Assembly: GCF_014898055.3 (NCBI RefSeq)
Contig: NW_023601212.1
Span: 44,504,329-44,568,328, forward strand
DNA: 64,000 nucleotides
DNA from: Talpa occidentalis
Taxonomy: Eukaryota; Chordata; Mammalia; Eulipotyphla; Talpidae
Reading direction: 5' to 3'
Positions within the stretch are counted from its first letter, which is position 1, and each line of letters begins with the position of its first letter. Shown piece after piece: positions 2,241 to 55,217 of the stretch. Made by a program: the position numbers and the translations under genes. The notes below the pieces were generated by a model. The model was not told the DNA's origin. It made no database searches and saw only the letters and a program-made list of their open reading frames with translations.

Positions 2241-2577
2241 TTCTTTGAGTTTAATGACAAAGATAACACCAATTTCCAGGATCTAGGGGGCACAGAAAAA
2301 TCAGTAATAAGAGGAAAAAATATAGCAATACAGGTTCACATCAAGAAACAAGAAAGAACTGAAAAAAAAAAAAACCTAATCTTGCATCTCAAAGAACTAG
2401 AAAAAGAACAACAATAAAAACAACAACAAAACTAAAACCAGTAGAAGAGAGGAAATAATAAATATCAAAGCAGAAATAAATGAAATAGAAACTCAAAAAA
2501 ATCTAAAAGATCACTGAAACTAAAAGTTGGTTCTTTGAAAAAATAAATAAAATGGACAAACCAGTAGCCAGGCTCAC

Positions 2578-2918
2578 TGTCCGGGCCAGCCGGGGAGATC
2601 AACGCGGTACCCGGGGGAGGAAGCAGGGGCTTGGTATAGGACAGGGGTACATGAGGAGTGGAGACAAAGCCAGGATCATCGCCAGTCTCATTTATTCAGG
2701 AATGTGTACAAGGTTATATAGGGTTCAGAGGGGGAGGTCTCTTGTTATCTCGAACAAGGAGAGACCACCAATGCAAACAAGCCACAAGGAGCAAGCAGGG
2801 GGAAGGGTTCAGTCGTCACAATAGGAAACTTGAAACCTTTACTGGAGCTAACATTCAGTACCTGCTTCAGGCAAGAACCCGGATGTTCAGGTCTGGGCCC
2901 CAGGACTGGGCCCCGACA
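2578..2918 (-). repeat. 3' LTR of the ERV
   Basis: This 341-bp partner of the 5' LTR begins TGTCGGGG and ends GGCCCGGACA on the minus strand. It carries TATATAA at 2714-2720 and AATAAA at 2691-2696. A polypurine tract abuts its start at 2919-2932. Confidence 0.95.
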
Positions 2919-2932
2919 GATCCTCCTTTTCT
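2919..2932 (-). promoter_or_regulatory. ERV polypurine tract
   Basis: The minus strand reads AGAAAAGGAGGATC immediately upstream of the 3' LTR. A purine run at this exact place primes plus-strand DNA synthesis in retroviruses. Confidence 0.8.
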
Positions 2933-3109
2933 ATTATTTCTAATGGGAGAGCAAGAAGACAAAACCCCTCGGGGACTGCGCCTGTCTTAGGTCGTCAGGA
3001 GTCACAGACGTGTGGCGATTTAGCACCTCAAGCCATTTTGAGTCTGCCCCCGATCTTACCCGTCATTGGCTGACCAGTCCATCGCACAGGGGAAGGGGGT
3101 CTTATTTCT

Positions 3110-4980
3110 TCAGACTAAGCATAAGTCTGAGTAAGAGCCTCCCTTATCTCGCATCTCCAACTTATGGTAATGTACCTGAATGGGTTTTGCTTGAAGGGCC
3201 TGAATCTGTTGTCTTACAAAGGTGATTATTCTGTTAAAAATTCAAGGACCCAGGACAACCAATATCAAAAGGGATAACAGGGGACCCATGAGGGGAAGAA
3301 GATAGGGTAAGAGTCCATTGAGACCAGTCCAGAGTGGGTTTTCAGCTAGTTCCTGGCGTCTTCTTTCCAGGTCATTTGTAACTGTTGGATTTTATTGCGG
3401 ACGATTCCTGATTTGTTGGCGTAGAAACAGCATTTCTCCTGCAGGACCAAGCAAATACCCCCCTTTTTCGTTGTTAGCAAATCAAGGCCCTGTCGATTTT
3501 GAAGGACTACCTCAGCTAAGGAGTCAACCTGATCCTGAAGATCCTGAATAGTACTAGAAAGAGCATGAACATCATTAATAAGTTGTTGAGACAGTTTAGT
3601 ATATTGTGAGAGCGATATGCCCAATCCAGCTGTCCCTGAGGCCACGGCAGCAGTTATACCCAGGCCTGCAAATAAGGGAATAAGGTGTACTGCTCTTTTA
3701 CTTTTACTGAAAAAATGGTCAACCGTTGGAATGGGCATGACTCACTTCCAGGAACAACGTCTATGTCGGGTAGGAGAAAACCCAACACGTATTGACCGGT
3801 CTAGTTAGCCGGCAATGGATGCGATTCATTTCCAGAATGCCGGAGGTGCCTCTCTCTGTGCTCCGAACGGTACCGACCTGGGCCGGCCGGTTTACGCAGG
3901 CTGCCTGGTGTGGTACCCCCGCCCCCGGAGGGGTCACCACGTCTGAGGAGGTGAACGTGCGGACACACTTGGGTGCAGCGCACTGTGGCCCAGAACTGCC
4001 GATCAAGCCATCCTCCTGCCTCAGCCTCCCATGTAGCCTGGGATTACAGGCGCGCGCCACTGCACCTGGCGTATCAGAAAACTGGATAGGCTGAACCAAA
4101 ATGGGAACCATGAAGGAGCAATTATGGTCGGGTGCAAGTGAGGTATTGGTTTTTGGAAAGGCCAAAGGCACAGGGAAACCCATTTGTAAGCATAACCAAC
4201 AATTATTGGCCAGTGAGGAATTTGTTAAATTAAGTAGATTGAAAGAGGAGTGGAGGATATTAAAAGTATTATAGTTAATGCCCAACTTTTGTCCTTCAGC
4301 AGGAAGGGCAAGTGGATGGTAGCTAAGCGCAGTGCAAGCTGTTTTAAGATTGTACTGACAAAATGATTTCTGGCTTTGTCTTGAGGACCTCCTCCATTGG
4401 TGACATGTATTGGGGCAGTAGTTGCCCAGCACACTGTGTCACCCACCTTTTTGTTAGCACCACAGGTGGTCAGCAAGGTAGAGGCCTGTGGCTGACTTGC
4501 AGGGGATGTCTTGATAAGAACAGCAGTATAATAACTCTTATTAGTATTGGCCGTACATTTAGAAAAAGTCTTGTAACATGAGGAGTGTACTGACTCAGCA
4601 AAGGAAGTGCAGGTACACTGCCCTCCATGTGAGGGGCCACCTATAGCTGTCCGGAGGCATTTATAGCTGGACTTACGCCTGGAGCCTGCAACAGTGACCA
4701 AATATGCGATGTGGCCAGGTCAAGTAATGTAAGAGACATACCCATTAGGAGCGGTAGAGAAATAGCCCCACCTGTACTCACAAGGTTTACCATGAAGATG
4801 TTGAGTCAAAGACACAATCTTGCCTGGATCCTTGAAGCCGGCAAAGGCCGAAGAGAAAATTAACACCTCAGCATAGAGGATGAACCAGAAAGCGGTCACC
4901 ATGCTGTAACAAATCTGTAACAAATCTGACAAGCCATTCAGGCAACCATCGGGCTGCATCATGAGTCTGTGAAGAGACAC
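3110..4980 (-). pseudogene. env: ERV env, type-D (RDR-like) envelope, broken and carrying a 7SL segment
   Basis: Env overlaps the end of pol, as in betaretroviruses. A hydrophobic leader runs from a Met at 4902 (VTAFWFILYAEV) and is followed by surface-subunit sequence. An in-frame TGA lies at 4720-4722. A frameshift occurs near 4280-4300. A CWLC motif lies downstream (about 4185-4200). From 4070 to 3859 the sequence is 7SL RNA, not env. The transmembrane subunit then resumes, with a furin-like KSKR followed by a hydrophobic fusion peptide, then an immunosuppressive-type region and a CX6CC motif (3346-3738). A frameshift near 3348 and a stop near 3236 interrupt the membrane span; the likely final stop is at 3110-3112. 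It cannot encode an envelope. Confidence 0.85.
3859..4070 (-). pseudogene. 7SL (SRP) RNA fragment inside ERV env
   Basis: On the minus strand the segment starts GCCAGGTGCAGTGGCGCG and continues with CTGTAATCCCAG and GGGAGGCTGAGGCAGGAGGAT, the 7SL/Alu 5' domain. It then keeps the S-domain landmarks absent from Alu: AGTTCTGGGC, GTGTCCGCAC, GGTGACC, ACCAGG and AACCGGCC with CCCAGGTCGG. These appear in 7SL order and with 7SL spacing, covering about nucleotides 1-208 of the roughly 300-nt RNA. The start coincides with 7SL nucleotide 1. The 3' third is missing, with no A-tail and no target duplication that I can find. Divergence from mammalian 7SL is clearly larger than the LTR divergence. It lies in the same orientation as the provirus. 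Confidence 0.85.
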
Positions 4981-5700
4981 ATACTGATCCCCTTCCCCAG
5001 ATCAGAAATGGGTCAGGGCCGTACCAAGCATTGTCCAAAGGGTCCTTCCATTTTACCATTGCTAATTGATTTTGCGTTTCCGTATGCCAGAAACGATCGG
5101 CCGCACTTTTTGCCTGAGCATCAAGCCTTAAGAAATTTAGGATGAACAGAGCATGGTTTAGCGTGTTGCGGGGGTTACCTTTAGAGATGTACCAGGAACC
5201 ATGTAAAATCTTTTGGATGGTGGTTTTTAATGAAAGATGGGCACGCTCAACTATGCCTTGTCCTTGAGAATTATAAGGGATGCCCGTGGCGTGGTGAATG
5301 GACAGGGTAGAGCAAAAATTTTTGAAGGCCTTTGCAGTGTAGCATGGGCCATTATCAGTTTTAATACGTTTTGGGATCCCCAAAATTGAGAAACAGTGGA
5401 GCAGGTGTGCAATAACATGTCTAGAGGTTTCACCTGTTTGAAGGGTGGCAAGGAGAAACCCACTGAAGGTATCCACAGTAACGTGGATATACTTAAAATT
5501 ACCGAATTGAGAATTATGGGTAACATCCATTTGCCAGAGGGTGTTGGGGATGAGGCCCCTGGGATTAACACCAAGATGGGGCACAGGAAGACCTGTCGCG
5601 CAGGTGGAGCAGGCTTTTACAATTTGTCTGGCTTGGCCACGAGTAATCTTAAACAAAAGCCGTAATGAGCAAGAGTTGAGATGGTGAAGGTCATGAGCAG
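4868..5700 (-). pseudogene. pol: ERV pol remnant: integrase only
   Basis: The open frame ending at 4868 holds most of a betaretroviral integrase. An HHCC-type zinc finger is visible (His pair in HDLHH, Cys pair in CSTC). The three catalytic acidic residues are present in context: WQMDVTH, KTDNGPCY and IVERAH. A C-terminal segment with WYGPDPFL follows. The frame starts upstream at 5812, but its first part is out-of-frame gag capsid, so integrase begins near the junction at about 5700. Protease, reverse transcriptase and RNase H have been deleted. No stop interrupts the integrase core, but without the rest of pol it has no way to be made normally. Confidence 0.9.
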
Positions 5701-5704
5701 CCTG

Positions 5705-7110
5705 TGAGCATTTCAAAAGTCCATGGGTTTCCAGCCCATTTATTTTCTCGGCCCAGGTCCCTACAGAGATTCTGAAATTTAGTCCTTCAAAGTAAGTGAT
5801 CTCTGCTGTCAAGGACAGTCTTTACTAAAGTTTGTCAATCTAGGGGAGTGAGCCACCCTTCTGCAATAGAATCAAGAATTGTGAGAGTGAAAAGGGCACT
5901 AGCACCATACTGGGTAACAGCGGTTTTTAATTCTTTTAAATGTTGAAAATCATGTGGCTGGTGATAACGGTGGCATTGGCCTTGAACATCTGGAGCTTTG
6001 ATAACAGGGAAGACACAAGCCGCGGATAAGGGCTTTTTGGGAGGCAGGAAAGCAGACAAAGCGGCGGGAGCCTTGGGGGGAGGAGATAAAATGACCTTGG
6101 CGCTAACCCTGCCCCATAATGGCGGCTTTAAGGTGATGTTGGCTTCAAGCCAACCCCATAACAGGCGGCTTTGAAGTGGCCTCAGCATCACCCCTCCCCC
6201 GTAATGGCGGAGCAGGATCTGAGTTGGATGAAGAAGTTAATTGGATCTGTTGAAGTTGAAAGGAAAGTTTATGATAACGAGCCTGTAGGCAGATGTGCTC
6301 CTCAAGGTGGGCGATTTTGGTTTTAAGGTCGAGATTAGGGTCAGCGAGTTGTGAGGGTGCAGAGGCAACAGCGGCTGTGTAATAAGGAGGAGAGTGGGGA
6401 TTGTAACAGACAGCCTCCTCCCCCACATTGCCCCAATCTACCTCGCCAGCCTCAGGATCCTACCCTTTATTGAGAGGGGGAGGGAGTTGCGAAGCAACTT
6501 TTGTGTTGCTATTGGAGTTAAGCAGTAGAAAAACTCCGTCCTCTACTTCAGATGAGCAAGGAGGGTTTGTAGCCACAGAAGTAAACTTGCTCAAAGAAGG
6601 ATAAATTCTGTTTTTCTTTTCTATTTTGGGCCGGTCGGGAGAGGCCCTTTCATTTTTCCCTAAGGGTTCTTTTTGTTCTTCTTTGGATGGATTGTCCTCC
6701 ACATCACTGTGAAACGGAATTAAGTCCTCACAGTGATCATTGGGGGATAGGGCCCCTGCCGTGCTGGGGGAAGCACTTCTAAGCAGTTGTTCTGTTTGGC
6801 AACTGGTATCTTTAATATCAGGGTAGGCTTCCTTTTTTGAAATTAAATCATTAATGAGATTCCAGTATGAGAATGTCGTCACTGGAATTTTTTCAGGGCC
6901 AAAGGCTTCATAGAAGTCATTTAAAGCATCTCCTACCCGTTTCCACCTTTTTTGATCTATTGTGCCCTCTTGAAGGAACCAAGGACACAGGTCTTGAACA
7001 AAATCAAAAAAGTGGAGTAGATCCTTTTTTGTGACCCTGACTCCTCGCGTCCTAAGTGCCTCTTTTAATTGCTTCACATATATCTCATGCTGGCTTATTG
7101 CCTGTCCCAT
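5705..7110 (-). pseudogene. gag: ERV gag, matrix to partial capsid, broken
   Basis: The reading frame opens at 7110 with MGQAISQHE, a glycine-2 myristoylation context, and shows a betaretrovirus-type matrix domain (CPWF near residue 48, then FGPEKIPVT and SYWNLI). An in-frame TAG stop lies at 6460-6462, after 216 codons. The same frame then continues to about 6145 and includes SPPYY, a PPxY-type late-budding motif, followed by a glutamine-rich stretch. A frameshift between 6145 and 6191 moves to a frame with the start of capsid (HLKELKTAVTQYG). More stops follow, including a TGA at 5835-5837. Capsid homology ends near 5705 at the deletion junction with integrase. Nucleocapsid is missing. Matrix alone (216 codons) is uninterrupted. 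Confidence 0.88.
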
Positions 7111-7241
7111 GATTCAGACGCTGTACCTGAGCTTACCTTATCCACGACGTGGCAGGGTCCCACGTCGGTAAGGCTTCCTCCTGAGCTAGCTAGCTTCCTT
7201 TTCGGGTGTCTTCTCCCTCTGTAGTTCTTCCTCGTACCCGG
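7111..7241 (-). promoter_or_regulatory. ERV leader with likely major splice donor and hairpin
   Basis: This is the untranslated leader between the primer-binding site and the gag start. The minus strand has AAG/GTAAGC with the GT at 7136-7135, a near-consensus donor for env mRNA. Just upstream, GACGTGG (7146-7152) and CCACGTC (7160-7166) form a perfect 7-bp stem with a 7-nt loop, placed where dimerisation and packaging hairpins occur. The roles are inferred from position. Confidence 0.55.
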
Positions 7242-7259
7242 GCCCCACGTTGGGCGCCA
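7242..7259 (-). promoter_or_regulatory. Retroviral primer-binding site, tRNA-Lys(1,2) type
   Basis: The minus strand reads TGGCGCCCAACGTGGGGC two bases after the 5' LTR. This is complementary to the 3' end of tRNA-Lys(1,2), the primer used by type-D betaretroviruses such as MPMV. All 18 positions look intact. Confidence 0.93.
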
Positions 7260-7261
7260 AA

Positions 7262-7603
7262 TGTCCAGGCCCGCCGGGCAGATCAAAGCGGTACCTGGGG
7301 GAGGAAGCAGGGGCTTGGTATAGGACAGGGGGTACATGAGGAGTGGAGACAAAGCCAGGATCATTGCCAGTCTCATTTATTCAGGAATGTGTACAAGGTT
7401 ATATAGGGTTCAAAGGGGGAGGTCTCTCGTTATCTCGAACAAGGAGAGACCACCAATGCAAACAAGCCACAAGGAGAAAGCAGGGGGAAGGGTTCAGTCG
7501 TCACAATAGGAAACTTGAAACCTTCACTGGAGCTAACATTCAGTACCTGCTTCAGGCAAGAACCCAGATGTTCAGGTCTGGACCCCAGGACTGGGCCCCG
7601 ACA
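7262..7603 (-). repeat. 5' LTR of the ERV
   Basis: On the minus strand this 342-bp repeat starts TGTCGGGG and ends GGACA, the expected TG...CA ends. It contains a TATATAA box (7399-7405) and an AATAAA polyadenylation signal (7376-7381) in the right order. It is directly followed by a two-base gap and the primer-binding site, which marks it as the 5' LTR. It matches the other LTR except at about 12 positions and one indel. Confidence 0.95.
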
Positions 7604-8120
7604 GCTCACAACCAAAAAAAAAAAAAAAAAAAAAACTGGAGAAAACATAATATAAATAGAATTATAAATTAAAACAGAGAAATCACAACAGACTCCTTGA
7701 AAATCAAAATAATAATCAGAGATTACTATGAACATTTATATGTAATCAAATTCAACAATCTAGAAGAGATGGGCATATTCCTAGAATGATATAGTCATCC
7801 AAAGCTAGATAGAGAAGAAACAGAACACCTTGTCATACCAATTACAGGCAGCGAAATTGGAGTAGTAATCAAAGCACTCCACAAAGACAAAAGCACAAGC
7901 CTAGACAGCTCCACAAATGAATTCCACCAAATGTCCACCAATGAATTAGTGCCTATCCTGCACAAACTCAAAAAATTGAAAAAGAAATACTACCAAATAA
8001 GTTCTATGAAGCCAACATTACATTAATGCCAAAACCAAAGACACCATGAAATAAGAAAATTATAGGCCAATCTCCCTAATGAACACATATACAAAAATCC
8101 TCAACAAAATTCTCGCCAAC

Positions 8121-8411
8121 ATAGGCCTCCCTGGTGGTGCAGCAGGTTGAGCGCAGTGCTGTGAAGCTGTCTGCAGGCTCTGCAGCACTGGCTGGATTTC
8201 CAGACGGCCAGGGAGATTCCCACATGGTGAGGTAGACTTCTCCTGTCTTGCCCACTTCGCCCCTCAGCAGTGTACTTTGGTCCTTCTGGCTGTTCTGCTC
8301 CCTGCTCTGTCTCTGGTGAATTCTCTCACCTCCCGCTACTCTGGCCTATACCCAGGTGCTTGTATAAATAAATAAATATTAAAAAAATAATATTCATAAA
8401 ATATATTTTTT
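8121..8411 (+). mobile_element. tRNA-derived SINE
   Basis: A full-length copy from the head (GGCCTCCCTGGTGGTGCAGC) to a long A/T tail. It is flanked by AAATTCTC(G/A)CCAAC at 8107-8120 and 8412-8425, and lies in the L1 reverse-transcriptase region. Confidence 0.88.
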
Positions 8412-8560
8412 AAATTCTCACCAACGGAATCCAACAATGCATGAAAGGAAAAATACCCACAATTATTTGGATTTATCCCAGGGGCACAAGAATGGTTCAA
8501 CATATGAAAATCGATCAGTATAATCCAACATATCAATAAAAAGAAAAATAAAAAAAACAT

Positions 8561-9112
8561 ATGATCATATCAATAGATGCTGAGAGAGAATTTGACAAAG
8601 TCCAACATCCATTTATGATGAAGGCCTATGAAATTCTCAGGATAGAAGGTACATACCTGAACATGATAAAAGCCATATACGACAAACCCACGGCCAATAT
8701 TATTCTCAATGGCGAAAAGTTGAAGGCCTTTCCTATAAGATCAGGAACAATACAAGGATGTCCTCTGTCATCACAGCTCCTCAATATAATACTGGAGGTC
8801 CTGGATAGAGCAATAATAAAAGAGAAAGATATAAAAGCAATCCAAATAGGGAAAGAAGAAGTAAAATTATCACTATTTGAAGATGATATAATATGCAACG
8901 AAAAACTACTCAAAATAATCAACCAGTTTAGTCAAGTAGCACGACACAAAATCAACACACAAAAATCGGTGGCCTTCCTATACACAATCATTCTGAAGAA
9001 GAAGAAATCAAGAAAACCATCAGAATTGAATTCAGAATTGAAACAAAAAAATCAAAAACTTGCGAATAAACCTAACAAAAGAGGTGAAGGAGTTATACAA
9101 AGAAAATTATAA
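8561..9112 (+). pseudogene. L1 ORF2 reverse-transcriptase remnant
   Basis: A 183-codon open stretch matches the L1 reverse-transcriptase core: [16 protein letters not shown], then GTIQGCPLS. The catalytic FADD box reads FEDD, a change that should abolish activity. Stops and frameshifts border it on both sides. Confidence 0.88.
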
Positions 9113-11630: not shown

Positions 11631-11897
11631 TGGGCCTCCCAGGTAGCACAGTGGGTTGAGTGCAGGGCTGTGGAGCTGTCCACAGTCTCCGCAGCACTGG
11701 TCCGATTCCCCGCCAGCCAGGGAGAAACCCACATGGCAAGGCAGACCTCTCCTGTCTCACCCGTTGCTCCCCTCAGCAGTGATTTCAGACTGTCTGCCTG
11801 TTCTGCTCCCTGCTCTGTCTCTGGTGAATCCTCTCACCCTCCTGTGAATCTGGCCTGTACCCCAGCTCTTGTATACATAAAAATAAATCCTAACAAA
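11631..11897 (+). mobile_element. tRNA-derived SINE
   Basis: A full-length copy with a 22-bp target duplication: AAAGAAACAACC then TAATTTCTCA, at 11609-11630 and 11898-11919. Confidence 0.9.
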
Positions 11898-13264: not shown

Positions 13265-13384
13265 GAGGGCCTCCCCTGGTGGTGCAGTGGTTGAGCGCTG
13301 GGTTGCAAGGCTGCCCACAGCCCCTGAAGCACTAGTTTGATCACCAGCCACCAGCAAGGGTCCCACCAAAAAAAAAATAAAAAA
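13265..13384 (+). mobile_element. Short SINE form: tRNA-like head plus A-tail
   Basis: The head runs from GGCCTCCCCTGGTGGTGCAG to GGGTCCCACC and then directly into an A-tail; the family body is absent. TTGTTAAAG flanks it (13256-13264 and 13385-13393), so it inserted in this form. Two other copies end at the same place (36945-37080 and 56686-56798). Confidence 0.8.
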
Positions 13385-26165: not shown

Positions 26166-26274
26166 TTAAAAAAAAAGATCAAGTTCTACTTAGTTTGCTC
26201 AATTAAGTATAATTTCTGACTATTTGTCTCCAGTGTCTAAAATTATGGGTGCTACTTCAGCCCTGGGGCAATTA

Positions 26275-27197
26275 TCATTTTGTAGTTTTCATTACAAAAA
26301 ATGTGGTCAGCGACCTCTTTATGTCTTTGTTCCTCAAACTGTAGATGAAGGGGTTCAGCATGGGTGTGATCACAGTGTACATCACTTGAACTTGAGTCAT
26401 GGGGAGCAGCAGAGCTAAGATACACTCCCAGGCCTGTGCAGTAAAATAAGGAGACAACTGAGAGGTGAGATGCACAGGTGGAAAATGCTTTATACTTGCC
26501 CTGAGCTGAAGAGATTCTACGAATGAAAGAATCTATCTTAGAGTAAGAGTAAACGATAACAAAGAGGGAACCACCACCGATTAGGATAGTCTCAATATAT
26601 ATCACCATATTATTGACAAAGGTGTCAGAACATGCCAGATTGATCATCTGATTGAGTTCACAGAAAAAGTGTGGGATTTCCACATTTGTGCAGAAGGGCA
26701 GCCATAACAACATTAAGCTTTGCATTAAGGAATACATTGCACTGATTATTCAGACCACCAAAACCAACAGCCCACACAGCTGAGGGTTCATGATGACCAT
26801 GTAGTGCAAGGGGTGACAGTTTGGCCACATAGCGGTCATAGACCATCACAATCAGGAGAAAGTTGTCCAACCCTGCAAACAGTGTGGAAAAATACACCTG
26901 GGTGATGCAACCTTTATAGGTAATGACTTTGCTGTGTGTCTGGATGTTCACCAACATGTTTGGGATGGTGGTGGAGGTAAAACAGATGTCAGCAAAGGAC
27001 AGGTTGGAGAGAAAGAAGTACATGGGTGTCTGAAGGTGGGAGTCAGAGCTGACAACCAGGAGGATGAGCAGGTTTCCTAACACAGTGATCAGATACATGC
27101 CGAGGAATAGTCCTAATAGGAGGGACTGCTGTTCTGCTTCCTCTGAAAATCTCAGCAGAAGAAATTCTGAAATTTGTGTATCATTGACTGGTTTCAT
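26275..27197 (-). pseudogene. Olfactory receptor pseudogene, OR7-like (unit B)
   Basis: It starts at a Met at 27197 ([12 protein letters not shown]) with an N-terminal NDT glycosylation site. TM1 ([10 protein letters not shown]), [10 protein letters not shown] in TM2 and MVYDRYVA at the end of TM3 follow. One extra base straight after YVA shifts the frame in the CHPL box. The next part (FCELNQ, then [18 protein letters not shown]) is in another frame. A second frameshift near SSAAPHD precedes the seventh-helix [16 protein letters not shown], which ends at a stop at 26275-26277. Length without the shifts is normal (about 308 codons). The unit has a promoter-like exon upstream (28611-28798) and an AG acceptor at 27212-27211. 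Two frameshifts make it non-functional as a receptor. Confidence 0.92.
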
Positions 27198-28159
27198 GTG
27201 GTACAGTTGACTTCCAGGAAAAAGGGAAATAACAAAACTTATTTCAAAAACATATATCACTAACCTACTTAAAATGCCTTCATTTATATTTTTGTAAGAA
27301 TTTAAATATAATTATTTTATGGTTTCCTTTAGGGGGTCTCAGTGATACCTCTGATATAGAATTTTTGCCCCAGTGAATTTTTCTTTTACCTATAGGAACA
27401 TAGGAACATGTGTTAGACAGCATTAATAATAAATTGATTTATTTCAGGAATATATCAATAAATTAAATTCTGACTGTGATTTAGGCACTTTCTAGGCAAT
27501 GACTTAAGGCATTGTTATTACAAAATTCGAATTCAATGGTGGAGCAAGAATACATCAGCAAACAATAAAATTATATAACATTTTAGATGGTAAATGTTGG
27601 GACCAAGAGAAGGAAACCAGTTATAAAGTAGAGAATGAATAGGGGATTTAGTTTTTCTTTGGTATTTTGATAGGAGCTGGAATGTACAGACATGCCACAT
27701 TTGAGCAAAGACCTCAGGGGAGAGAGGGGAGGGAGACCAGTTTGTGTGGCTTCGTATGTGCCCAGCAGAGAGAACAGTGAGAGCACAGATGAAAATGATT
27801 CTTGTGTCAAATATTCAAGTTAAAAAATGTGAAGACATCTGCACAACAAAAGAAAATATCAGTAGAACAAAAAGACATACTACTGAACGTGGGGAAGGAG
27901 AAGCAAGTAAAGGACAAGGAAGATAGATGGGAGAAAAGGGAGAGGGGGAAATATAAGGGAAACAAACTGAATAAAGAGTAAACAATGTTTAATATGCCAG
28001 GTGGTCCCTCAGAGACTGAACTCAGTGGCCTTCTCAACCCTGATTGTATTCCCAACAAAAATGATAATAGAATAACAACAAATTTTTGTCCAAGTAAGAA
28101 ATAGTGATATTTTACAAACTACTTATGATAAATACCTTACATATTGTACACACAAGAGA

Positions 28160-54002: not shown

Positions 54003-54947
54003 CTATGACAACTGCCCTTTTGTAATTTCTTTCACAAAGAATCTTTTCAGGGCCCTCTTTATGTCTTTGTTCCTCAGACTGTAGATGAAGGGGTTCAGCA
54101 TTGGTGTGACCACAGTGTACATCACTGAGGCTATTGCACTTGATTGTGAGCTGTGGGTAGCTGCAGAGCTAAGGTACACCCCTAGGATTGTACAATAAAA
54201 TAAAAGAACAACTGAAAGGTGAGATGCACATGTGGAAAATGCTTTATACTTGCCCTGAGCAGATGAGATTCTACGTATGGAGGAAACTATCTTAGAGTAA
54301 GAGTAAAGGATACAAATAAAGGGACCACCGCCCAACAAGAGAGCTGCAATGTACATCACCATGTTATTAACAAAGGTGTCAGAACAGGCAAGTTGGATCA
54401 TCCGATTGACTTCACAGAAAAAGTGGGGGATTACCAAGTCTGTACAGAATGAGAGTCGCAAAATCATTAAGCTTTCTAGCAAGGCATTCAGGGCACTAAG
54501 GATCCAGGACACCAGAACCAGCAGTCCACAGAGCCGGGGATTCATGATGACCATGTAGTGCAGGGGGTGACAGATGGCCACAAAGCGGTCATAGGCCATC
54601 ACAGTCAGGAGAAACATATCCAACACAGCAAAGAGTACAAAAAAATAAATTTGGGTGATACAGTGTTCATACATTATGACCTTGCTCTGTGTGTGGATGT
54701 TTAGCAGCATCTTGGGGATGATTGTAGAGGTGAAGCAGATGTCTACCAAGGACAGGTTGCAGAGGAAAAAGTACATGGGTGTATGGAGCCGGGAATCTGA
54801 GCTGACAGCCAGGATGATGAACAGGTTCCCAAAGATAGTGAGCAAGTACATGGAGAGGAAAAACCCAAAAATAAAAGACTGCAGTTGTGGTTCCTCTGAT
54901 AATCCCAGAAGAAATATTGAAATTTTTGTATTATTGCCTGTTTCCAT
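54003..54947 (-). CDS. Olfactory receptor, OR7 family-like, intact (unit D)
   Basis: A 314-codon class II odorant receptor, an odorant-binding G-protein-coupled receptor of the olfactory sensory-neuron membrane. The Met at 54947 ([12 protein letters not shown]) is chosen over the one at 55031: it gives the usual OR length, puts the NNT glycosylation site at the N-terminus, and lies 16 bases after a pyrimidine-rich AG acceptor (54965-54964). In order: GN in TM1 ([12 protein letters not shown]), [10 protein letters not shown] in TM2, [15 protein letters not shown] at TM3, cysteine-rich loop 2, SYSKIVSSI at TM5, [10 protein letters not shown] at TM6 and [16 protein letters not shown] at TM7. No stop or shift interrupts it. 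The wording is typical of OR7; the exact subfamily (A, C or G) is not settled. Its putative promoter exon (58175-58450) is the least conserved of the four units. Confidence 0.95.
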
Positions 54948-54963
54948 GTGGTGGAAATGACCT

Positions 54964-54975
54964 CTGGAAAAGAAG
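54964..54975 (-). promoter_or_regulatory. Splice acceptor before the intact OR
   Basis: The minus strand reads TTCTTCTTTTCCAG/AGG, with the exon starting at 54963, just upstream of the start codon. OR coding exons are normally joined to 5' non-coding exons at such a site. Confidence 0.6.
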
Positions 54976-55217
54976 AAAACAAAATAAAGTTTCATGCAAA
55001 ATTTCATTAACCACATCTCTGAATGCTGCACTATGTATTTTGCTCTTAATAAATTAGCTTTTGCATTCTGTATATGGCTTTATTTCGCCTGTATGATCCC
55101 AGTACCACCTCTAATATTGAATTGTGCCCTAACCAGCATTAAGAGTTCATGTACTCTACAGTTTTTAAGTTATTTTTTTTCATAGCAGAAGTATAAATTA
55201 ATTGCTCAGTTGATGTT

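Follow-up and report, generated by a model that had tools for sequence, protein, structure and literature searches.

The window, that is the whole stretch of 64,000 nucleotides of Talpa occidentalis DNA analyzed here, carries on its minus strand a defective betaretroviral provirus with a segment of 7SL RNA sequence inside env. In proviral order, the following features were found:

7604..7609, minus strand: target-site duplication on the 5' side of the provirus (GTGAGC); the identical six bases stand right after the 3' LTR
7262..7603, minus strand: 5' LTR, TG...CA, compared with the 3' LTR
6981..7259, minus strand: primer binding site region and MPMV-type packaging signal RF00459 (MPMV_package, 136.6 bits, E 5.7e-32)
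6463..7113, minus strand: gag ORF with Gag_p10 (PF02337, E 1.3e-24)
5838..6236, minus strand: gag, start of the capsid, Gag_p24 profile positions 2-44 of 128 (PF00607, E 4.7e-10)
4871..5821, minus strand: ORF with the Zn-binding, core and DNA-binding domains of integrase (PF02022, PF00665, PF00552)
4071..5001, minus strand: env surface-subunit remnants spread over different frames, with a TLV_coat match on the last piece
3859..4070, minus strand: 7SL RNA segment in proviral sense, with nt 1 at 4070 and approximately nt 208 at 3859, by local alignment and Rfam
3735..3858, minus strand: probable end of the env surface subunit, by collinearity with Syncytin-2 (E 0.14, weak alone)
3349..3741, minus strand: env transmembrane subunit (4jf3, E 4.1e-42; PF00429 profile positions 379-505, E 1.6e-56)
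2578..2918, minus strand: 3' LTR, TG...CA, compared with the 5' LTR
2572..2577, minus strand: target-site duplication on the 3' side of the provirus (GTGAGC)

LTRs bounded by TG and CA with a 6-bp target duplication, together with the packaging signal and Gag p10, identify the element as a betaretroviral provirus. Over 340 aligned bases, its two LTRs show 12 differences, plus one indel, which corresponds to 3.5% divergence. Behind the 5' LTR, the primer binding site is located at 7259-7242 (minus strand) and presumably belongs to tRNA-Lys1,2. Just the first third of Gag_p24 is recognizable. Between p10 and p24 (6089-6210), gag also contains three diverged 37-nt direct repeats at a spacing of 42-43 nt, with 62% and 73% identity to the reference copy.

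Seven ORF pieces were scanned against Pfam and gave no match to a protease or reverse transcriptase, and the capsid start is followed by integrase within about 130 nt (region 5640-5838), a space too small for both enzymes. They appear to have been lost through an internal deletion between capsid and integrase, and the provirus does not possess the protease and reverse transcriptase of a replication-competent betaretrovirus. The LTRs, primer binding site and packaging signal are kept. If both enzymes were already gone at integration, the element would have moved with the proteins of another virus. RF00459, Gag_p10 and a transmembrane subunit closest to 4jf3 are shared with MPMV-type betaretroviruses, from which the provirus differs by the two missing enzymes and by an env broken by 7SL.

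The 7SL segment and its edges within env

As reference we employed a working version of human 7SL (299 nt), which may deviate in single letters, and not the host's own 7SL. Positions 3700-4150 (minus strand) were freely aligned to it by local alignment, with 200 mononucleotide shuffles serving as control. Positions 4070-3859 aligned with nt 1-208 of this reference, with 164 of 195 aligned columns being identical and 30 gap columns falling into 14 openings. The alignment reached a score of 194, compared to a maximum of 56 and a mean of 36 among the shuffles (n=200). With the Rfam model RF00017 (metazoan SRP), a scan of 5.2 kb scored 34.5 bits (E 2.4e-6) and a 231-nt stretch 41 bits (E 1.3e-9); in the latter, model positions 1-223 were covered and the match was cut at its 3' end. 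Both scores are below the gathering score of 70 and the default whole-window Rfam scan came without this match; with 41 against 70 bits, the segment falls short of a functional metazoan SRP RNA. What is present are the 5' strand of the Alu domain and S-domain sequence, collinear over nt 1-208. The 3' limit is uncertain by about 15 nt, since local alignment places it at nt 208 and Rfam, with low posterior, at 223.

The first-pass annotation had described 7SL sequence at 3859-4070 in proviral sense, starting at the 5' end of the RNA and lacking its 3' third. Identity and coordinates hold, given the alignment score and the RF00017 match, and the run of the metazoan SRP model which it had proposed agrees, yet below the gathering score. 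The segment lies on the minus strand, as do the LTRs, gag and env. Local alignment starts at nt 1 and Rfam at model position 1, while the homology ends in the S domain: the remaining third of 7SL was not detected in 3600-3866, where its alignment scored 19, compared to a mean of 22 and a maximum of 35 among shuffles. Elsewhere in the window, a 7SL-type 15-mer did not occur with up to 2 mismatches.

One might ask if the similarity arose by chance or if a SINE of the Alu, B1 or Tu type is seen instead of 7SL. The first 60 nt are Alu-like and include two bases that we take to be typical of Alu, one of which is the Rfam 7SL consensus as well, and the mir-1268 model, whose gathering score is 83, matches this portion with 25.8 bits (E 0.0066). 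However, S-domain sequence is present to nt 208, whereas Alu, B1 and Tu SINEs are not known to carry the S domain, and a score more than three times the shuffle maximum speaks against chance. The probability of either explanation is thus practically negligible.

Upstream of the segment, the last env piece (4073-4438) matches TLV_coat profile positions 208-303, and this match stops 5 nt short of the first 7SL base. The pieces 4228-4719 and 4723-5001 are without Pfam match and were assigned by position. With a longer ORF as query, the TLV_coat match ended at profile position 310, about six codons inside 7SL, which we take as an edge effect. Among solved structures, the env piece upstream of 7SL found no env relative at E 1, and a query of 53 aa found none. 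An 80-aa env piece upstream of 7SL matched residues 20-59 of Syncytin-2 at E 0.28, which is useless for sizing the gap in env.

On the downstream side, the 40 nt between the end of 7SL and recognizable env (3819-3858) matched nothing against which they were tested. Positions 3818-3741 are collinear with residues 308-333 of Syncytin-2 (E 0.14, weak alone), just before the transmembrane match that begins at residue 336, and a Pfam search of 3735..3858 gave no match. An env duplication just downstream of 7SL, suspected by eye, was rejected, as its score was reached by 38 of 2000 shuffles and the repeat search lists none; being collinear with Syncytin-2, this stretch is better read as env. The best solved relative of the transmembrane subunit is 4jf3, listed as Envelope glycoprotein and presumably that of MPMV.

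Between both sides, TLV_coat positions 304-378 (or 311-378) are absent, 28 to 41 of which fit in 3735-3858. An estimated 27-47 env codons would consequently be missing at the site, based on the family profile and a weak downstream anchor (E 0.14). Since env codons were apparently lost according to this estimate, 7SL probably replaced env sequence rather than being simply inserted. At the edges of the segment, the longest word common to the 25-nt flanks comprises 4 nt and lies away from the edges, and there is no A-run at the 3' edge. Thus, the earlier observation that 7SL carries neither A-tail nor target duplication stands, unlike the situation of the provirus itself with its clean 6-bp duplication.

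Divergence and origin of the segment

Compared to the human 7SL reference, the segment comprises 31 substitutions in 195 aligned bases plus indels. With an LTR divergence of 3.5%, i.e., about 1.8% per LTR, about 3.4 substitutions would be expected in 195 bases since integration. The segment must therefore have differed from (human) 7SL at most of these sites before integration, in line with the previous impression that its divergence exceeds that of the LTRs. It may have been carried along in earlier rounds, or else its donor had diverged beforehand.

The reading to which we attribute a probability of roughly 0.68 is that 7SL RNA of the host, packaged together with a betaretroviral genome, became part of it when reverse transcriptase switched templates. 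During minus-strand synthesis on env RNA, reverse transcriptase would have jumped from the transmembrane side of env to 7SL, at around nt 208, and copied it to the 5' terminus (nt 1). After running off at nt 1, the enzyme would have returned to env RNA at a point further upstream, so that the estimated 27-47 codons were skipped. The product would then have replicated for at least one, probably several, rounds before the present copy integrated. Both the sense orientation and the boundary at the 5' end of the RNA are as a template switch would leave them. The first-pass annotation had arrived at the same mechanism; its anatomy and its divergence stand and the loss of env, estimated from the profile, is added here, while template switching itself is what we infer from them.

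In mammals, many 7SL copies were made by LINE-1, and such a pseudogene might have entered env of an older provirus, lost its tail and duplication and been copied here along with the altered provirus. Besides the abundance of such copies, the divergence of the segment, old relative to integration, fits this scenario. However, a LINE-1 copy begins at the 3' end of the RNA, is usually A-tailed, often 5'-truncated and flanked by a duplication. The segment shows no A-tail, no RNA 3' end and no 7-20 bp duplication; it is truncated at the wrong end, being 5' complete with its 3' part missing, and env was apparently lost at the site. With each hallmark of LINE-1 reversed or absent, a template switch fits better, as it accounts for the start at nt 1, the stop in the S domain with loss of the 3' part, the same sense as the provirus and the loss of env.

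The CpG sites can be read in both directions. Changes are more frequent at CpG positions (8 of 34) than elsewhere (23 of 161), and three of the first five CpG sites of 7SL are now CA or TG, which speaks for a pseudogene made by LINE-1. In contrast, the segment comprises 16 CpG compared to 17 in 7SL, and 9 of the 17 original sites are intact. The expected number of intact sites depends on the assumed decay: 2.2 for tenfold (P 1e-4), 5.8 for fivefold (P 0.085), 8.5 for threefold (P 0.49) and 12.4 without any excess (P of 9 or fewer 0.063). The test is thus soft, and the CpG sites lean only slightly against the segment having long resided in the genome as a methylated pseudogene. Altogether, we regard a LINE-1-made pseudogene as an improbable source.

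Another scenario starts from the donor: the RNA that a retrovirus took up, either via template switching or by read-through, might have come from a 7SL pseudogene that had diverged before. The 14 gap openings in 212 nt are many for a direct copy of 7SL RNA, which counts against capture of genuine 7SL, and a diverged donor would account at once for the strong divergence and the numerous indels. The base pairs of 7SL, whose retention does not clearly exceed chance (see below), are likewise compatible with such a donor. However, read-through should add flanking genomic sequence while the homology starts at nt 1, and the retention of CpG sites, soft as it is, points in the same direction. We give this scenario slightly less credence than the insertion of a pseudogene by LINE-1.

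Function, precedents and relatives of the 7SL segment

No function of the 7SL segment could be demonstrated and it most likely helped to ruin env. A function as RNA was considered and found no support, as the retention of base pairs is not clearly beyond chance: from 59 pairs of the predicted, not experimental, human 7SL fold, 40 are the same, 5 are kept with one change, 9 are broken and 5 gapped, and the 9 broken pairs compare to 12.4 expected (P 0.13).

One might further speculate that a betaretroviral lineage carried 7SL in env for many rounds, and that part of its surface protein was once read from SRP RNA. This idea is favored by the frame that enters the segment from env, which is open throughout, where unmutated 7SL has three stops in the same frame, and by a divergence that far predates integration. 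It is weakened since 6.4% of 20,000 simulated diverged 7SL copies were open in the env frame as well (with approximate indel sizes), which is not rare, and since the frame through 7SL is not continuous with downstream env in the present copy. We thus consider an Env-coding past of the segment unlikely. With env pieces in different frames and stops separating them elsewhere in the provirus, no full-length Env should be made from the present copy.

A strong enrichment of 7SL in retroviral particles is described in PMC4997597. According to the same text, reverse transcripts of 7SL were patched into an experimental retroviral recombinant (Hajjar and Linial 1993, J Virol 67:7677, cited in PMC4997597). 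As far as described there, this recombinant resembles the present provirus in carrying 7SL sequence, yet it is experimental, whereas here a germline betaretroviral provirus is concerned, with env partly replaced and marked divergence. Patch repair, or capture of host sequence by template switching, as outlined in PMC4997597, likewise places a host segment between two viral sequences; in the present case, a structural RNA made by pol III would have served as donor and been copied as far as its 5' end. Among the open-access papers listed, no natural provirus with captured 7SL was found, and one may have been published elsewhere. Given the laboratory recombinant, we count the segment as a germline case of an established kind. 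As a fossil in the germline, it would demonstrate that viral reverse transcriptase can use packaged 7SL as a template outside the laboratory.

7SL-derived genomic DNA is otherwise represented by pseudogenes made by LINE-1 and by SINEs such as Alu, B1 and Tu. In contrast to these, the segment is 5' complete with its 3' part missing, has no A-tail or duplication, keeps S-domain sequence and resides inside a provirus.

If other copies shared its junctions, the entry of a structural RNA of the host into a viral gene could be dated with the segment as example. Searches of the window, the viral contigs and the protein set found neither a second copy nor a relative with uninterrupted env, and the putative capture event is therefore without a place in the history of its family. 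No further copies turned up elsewhere in the window when four provirus pieces and the 7SL segment were used as blastn queries (E 1e-3). In the viral contig collection, the transmembrane and integrase queries hit 38 and 4 pattern stretches, respectively, none of which encoded a relative. A 17-mer of the 7SL S domain hit 31 viral contigs. The 18-mer of the primer binding site occurred in one viral contig (L032), where six protein pieces gave nothing convincing (best tblastn E 0.035). For the 225-aa ORF across 7SL, the 259 candidates of the protein set included no relative (E 1 or better), and PHROGs gave no match. A search for a second captured RNA (Rfam, 2500-7700) gave, besides RF00459, RF00017 and mir-1268, three families with E 0.24-0.35, all under their gathering scores.

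Other elements of the window were observed as well. LINE-1-like sequence, recognized by eye, adjoins the provirus, for example as an ORF at 8552-9112; in combination with the olfactory receptor ORFs named below, it points to a mammal as host. Copies of a SINE-like repeat, possibly tRNA-derived at a guess, are located at 1978-2240, 8125-8387, 11634-11896 and 13269-13329, and the first three end in an A-rich tail. Two olfactory receptors are present: one is apparently broken and lies within 26252-27311 (PF13853 on 26661-27311, E 3.4e-20), and the other is an open ORF of 358 aa at 54003-55079 (PF13853, E 6.2e-52).
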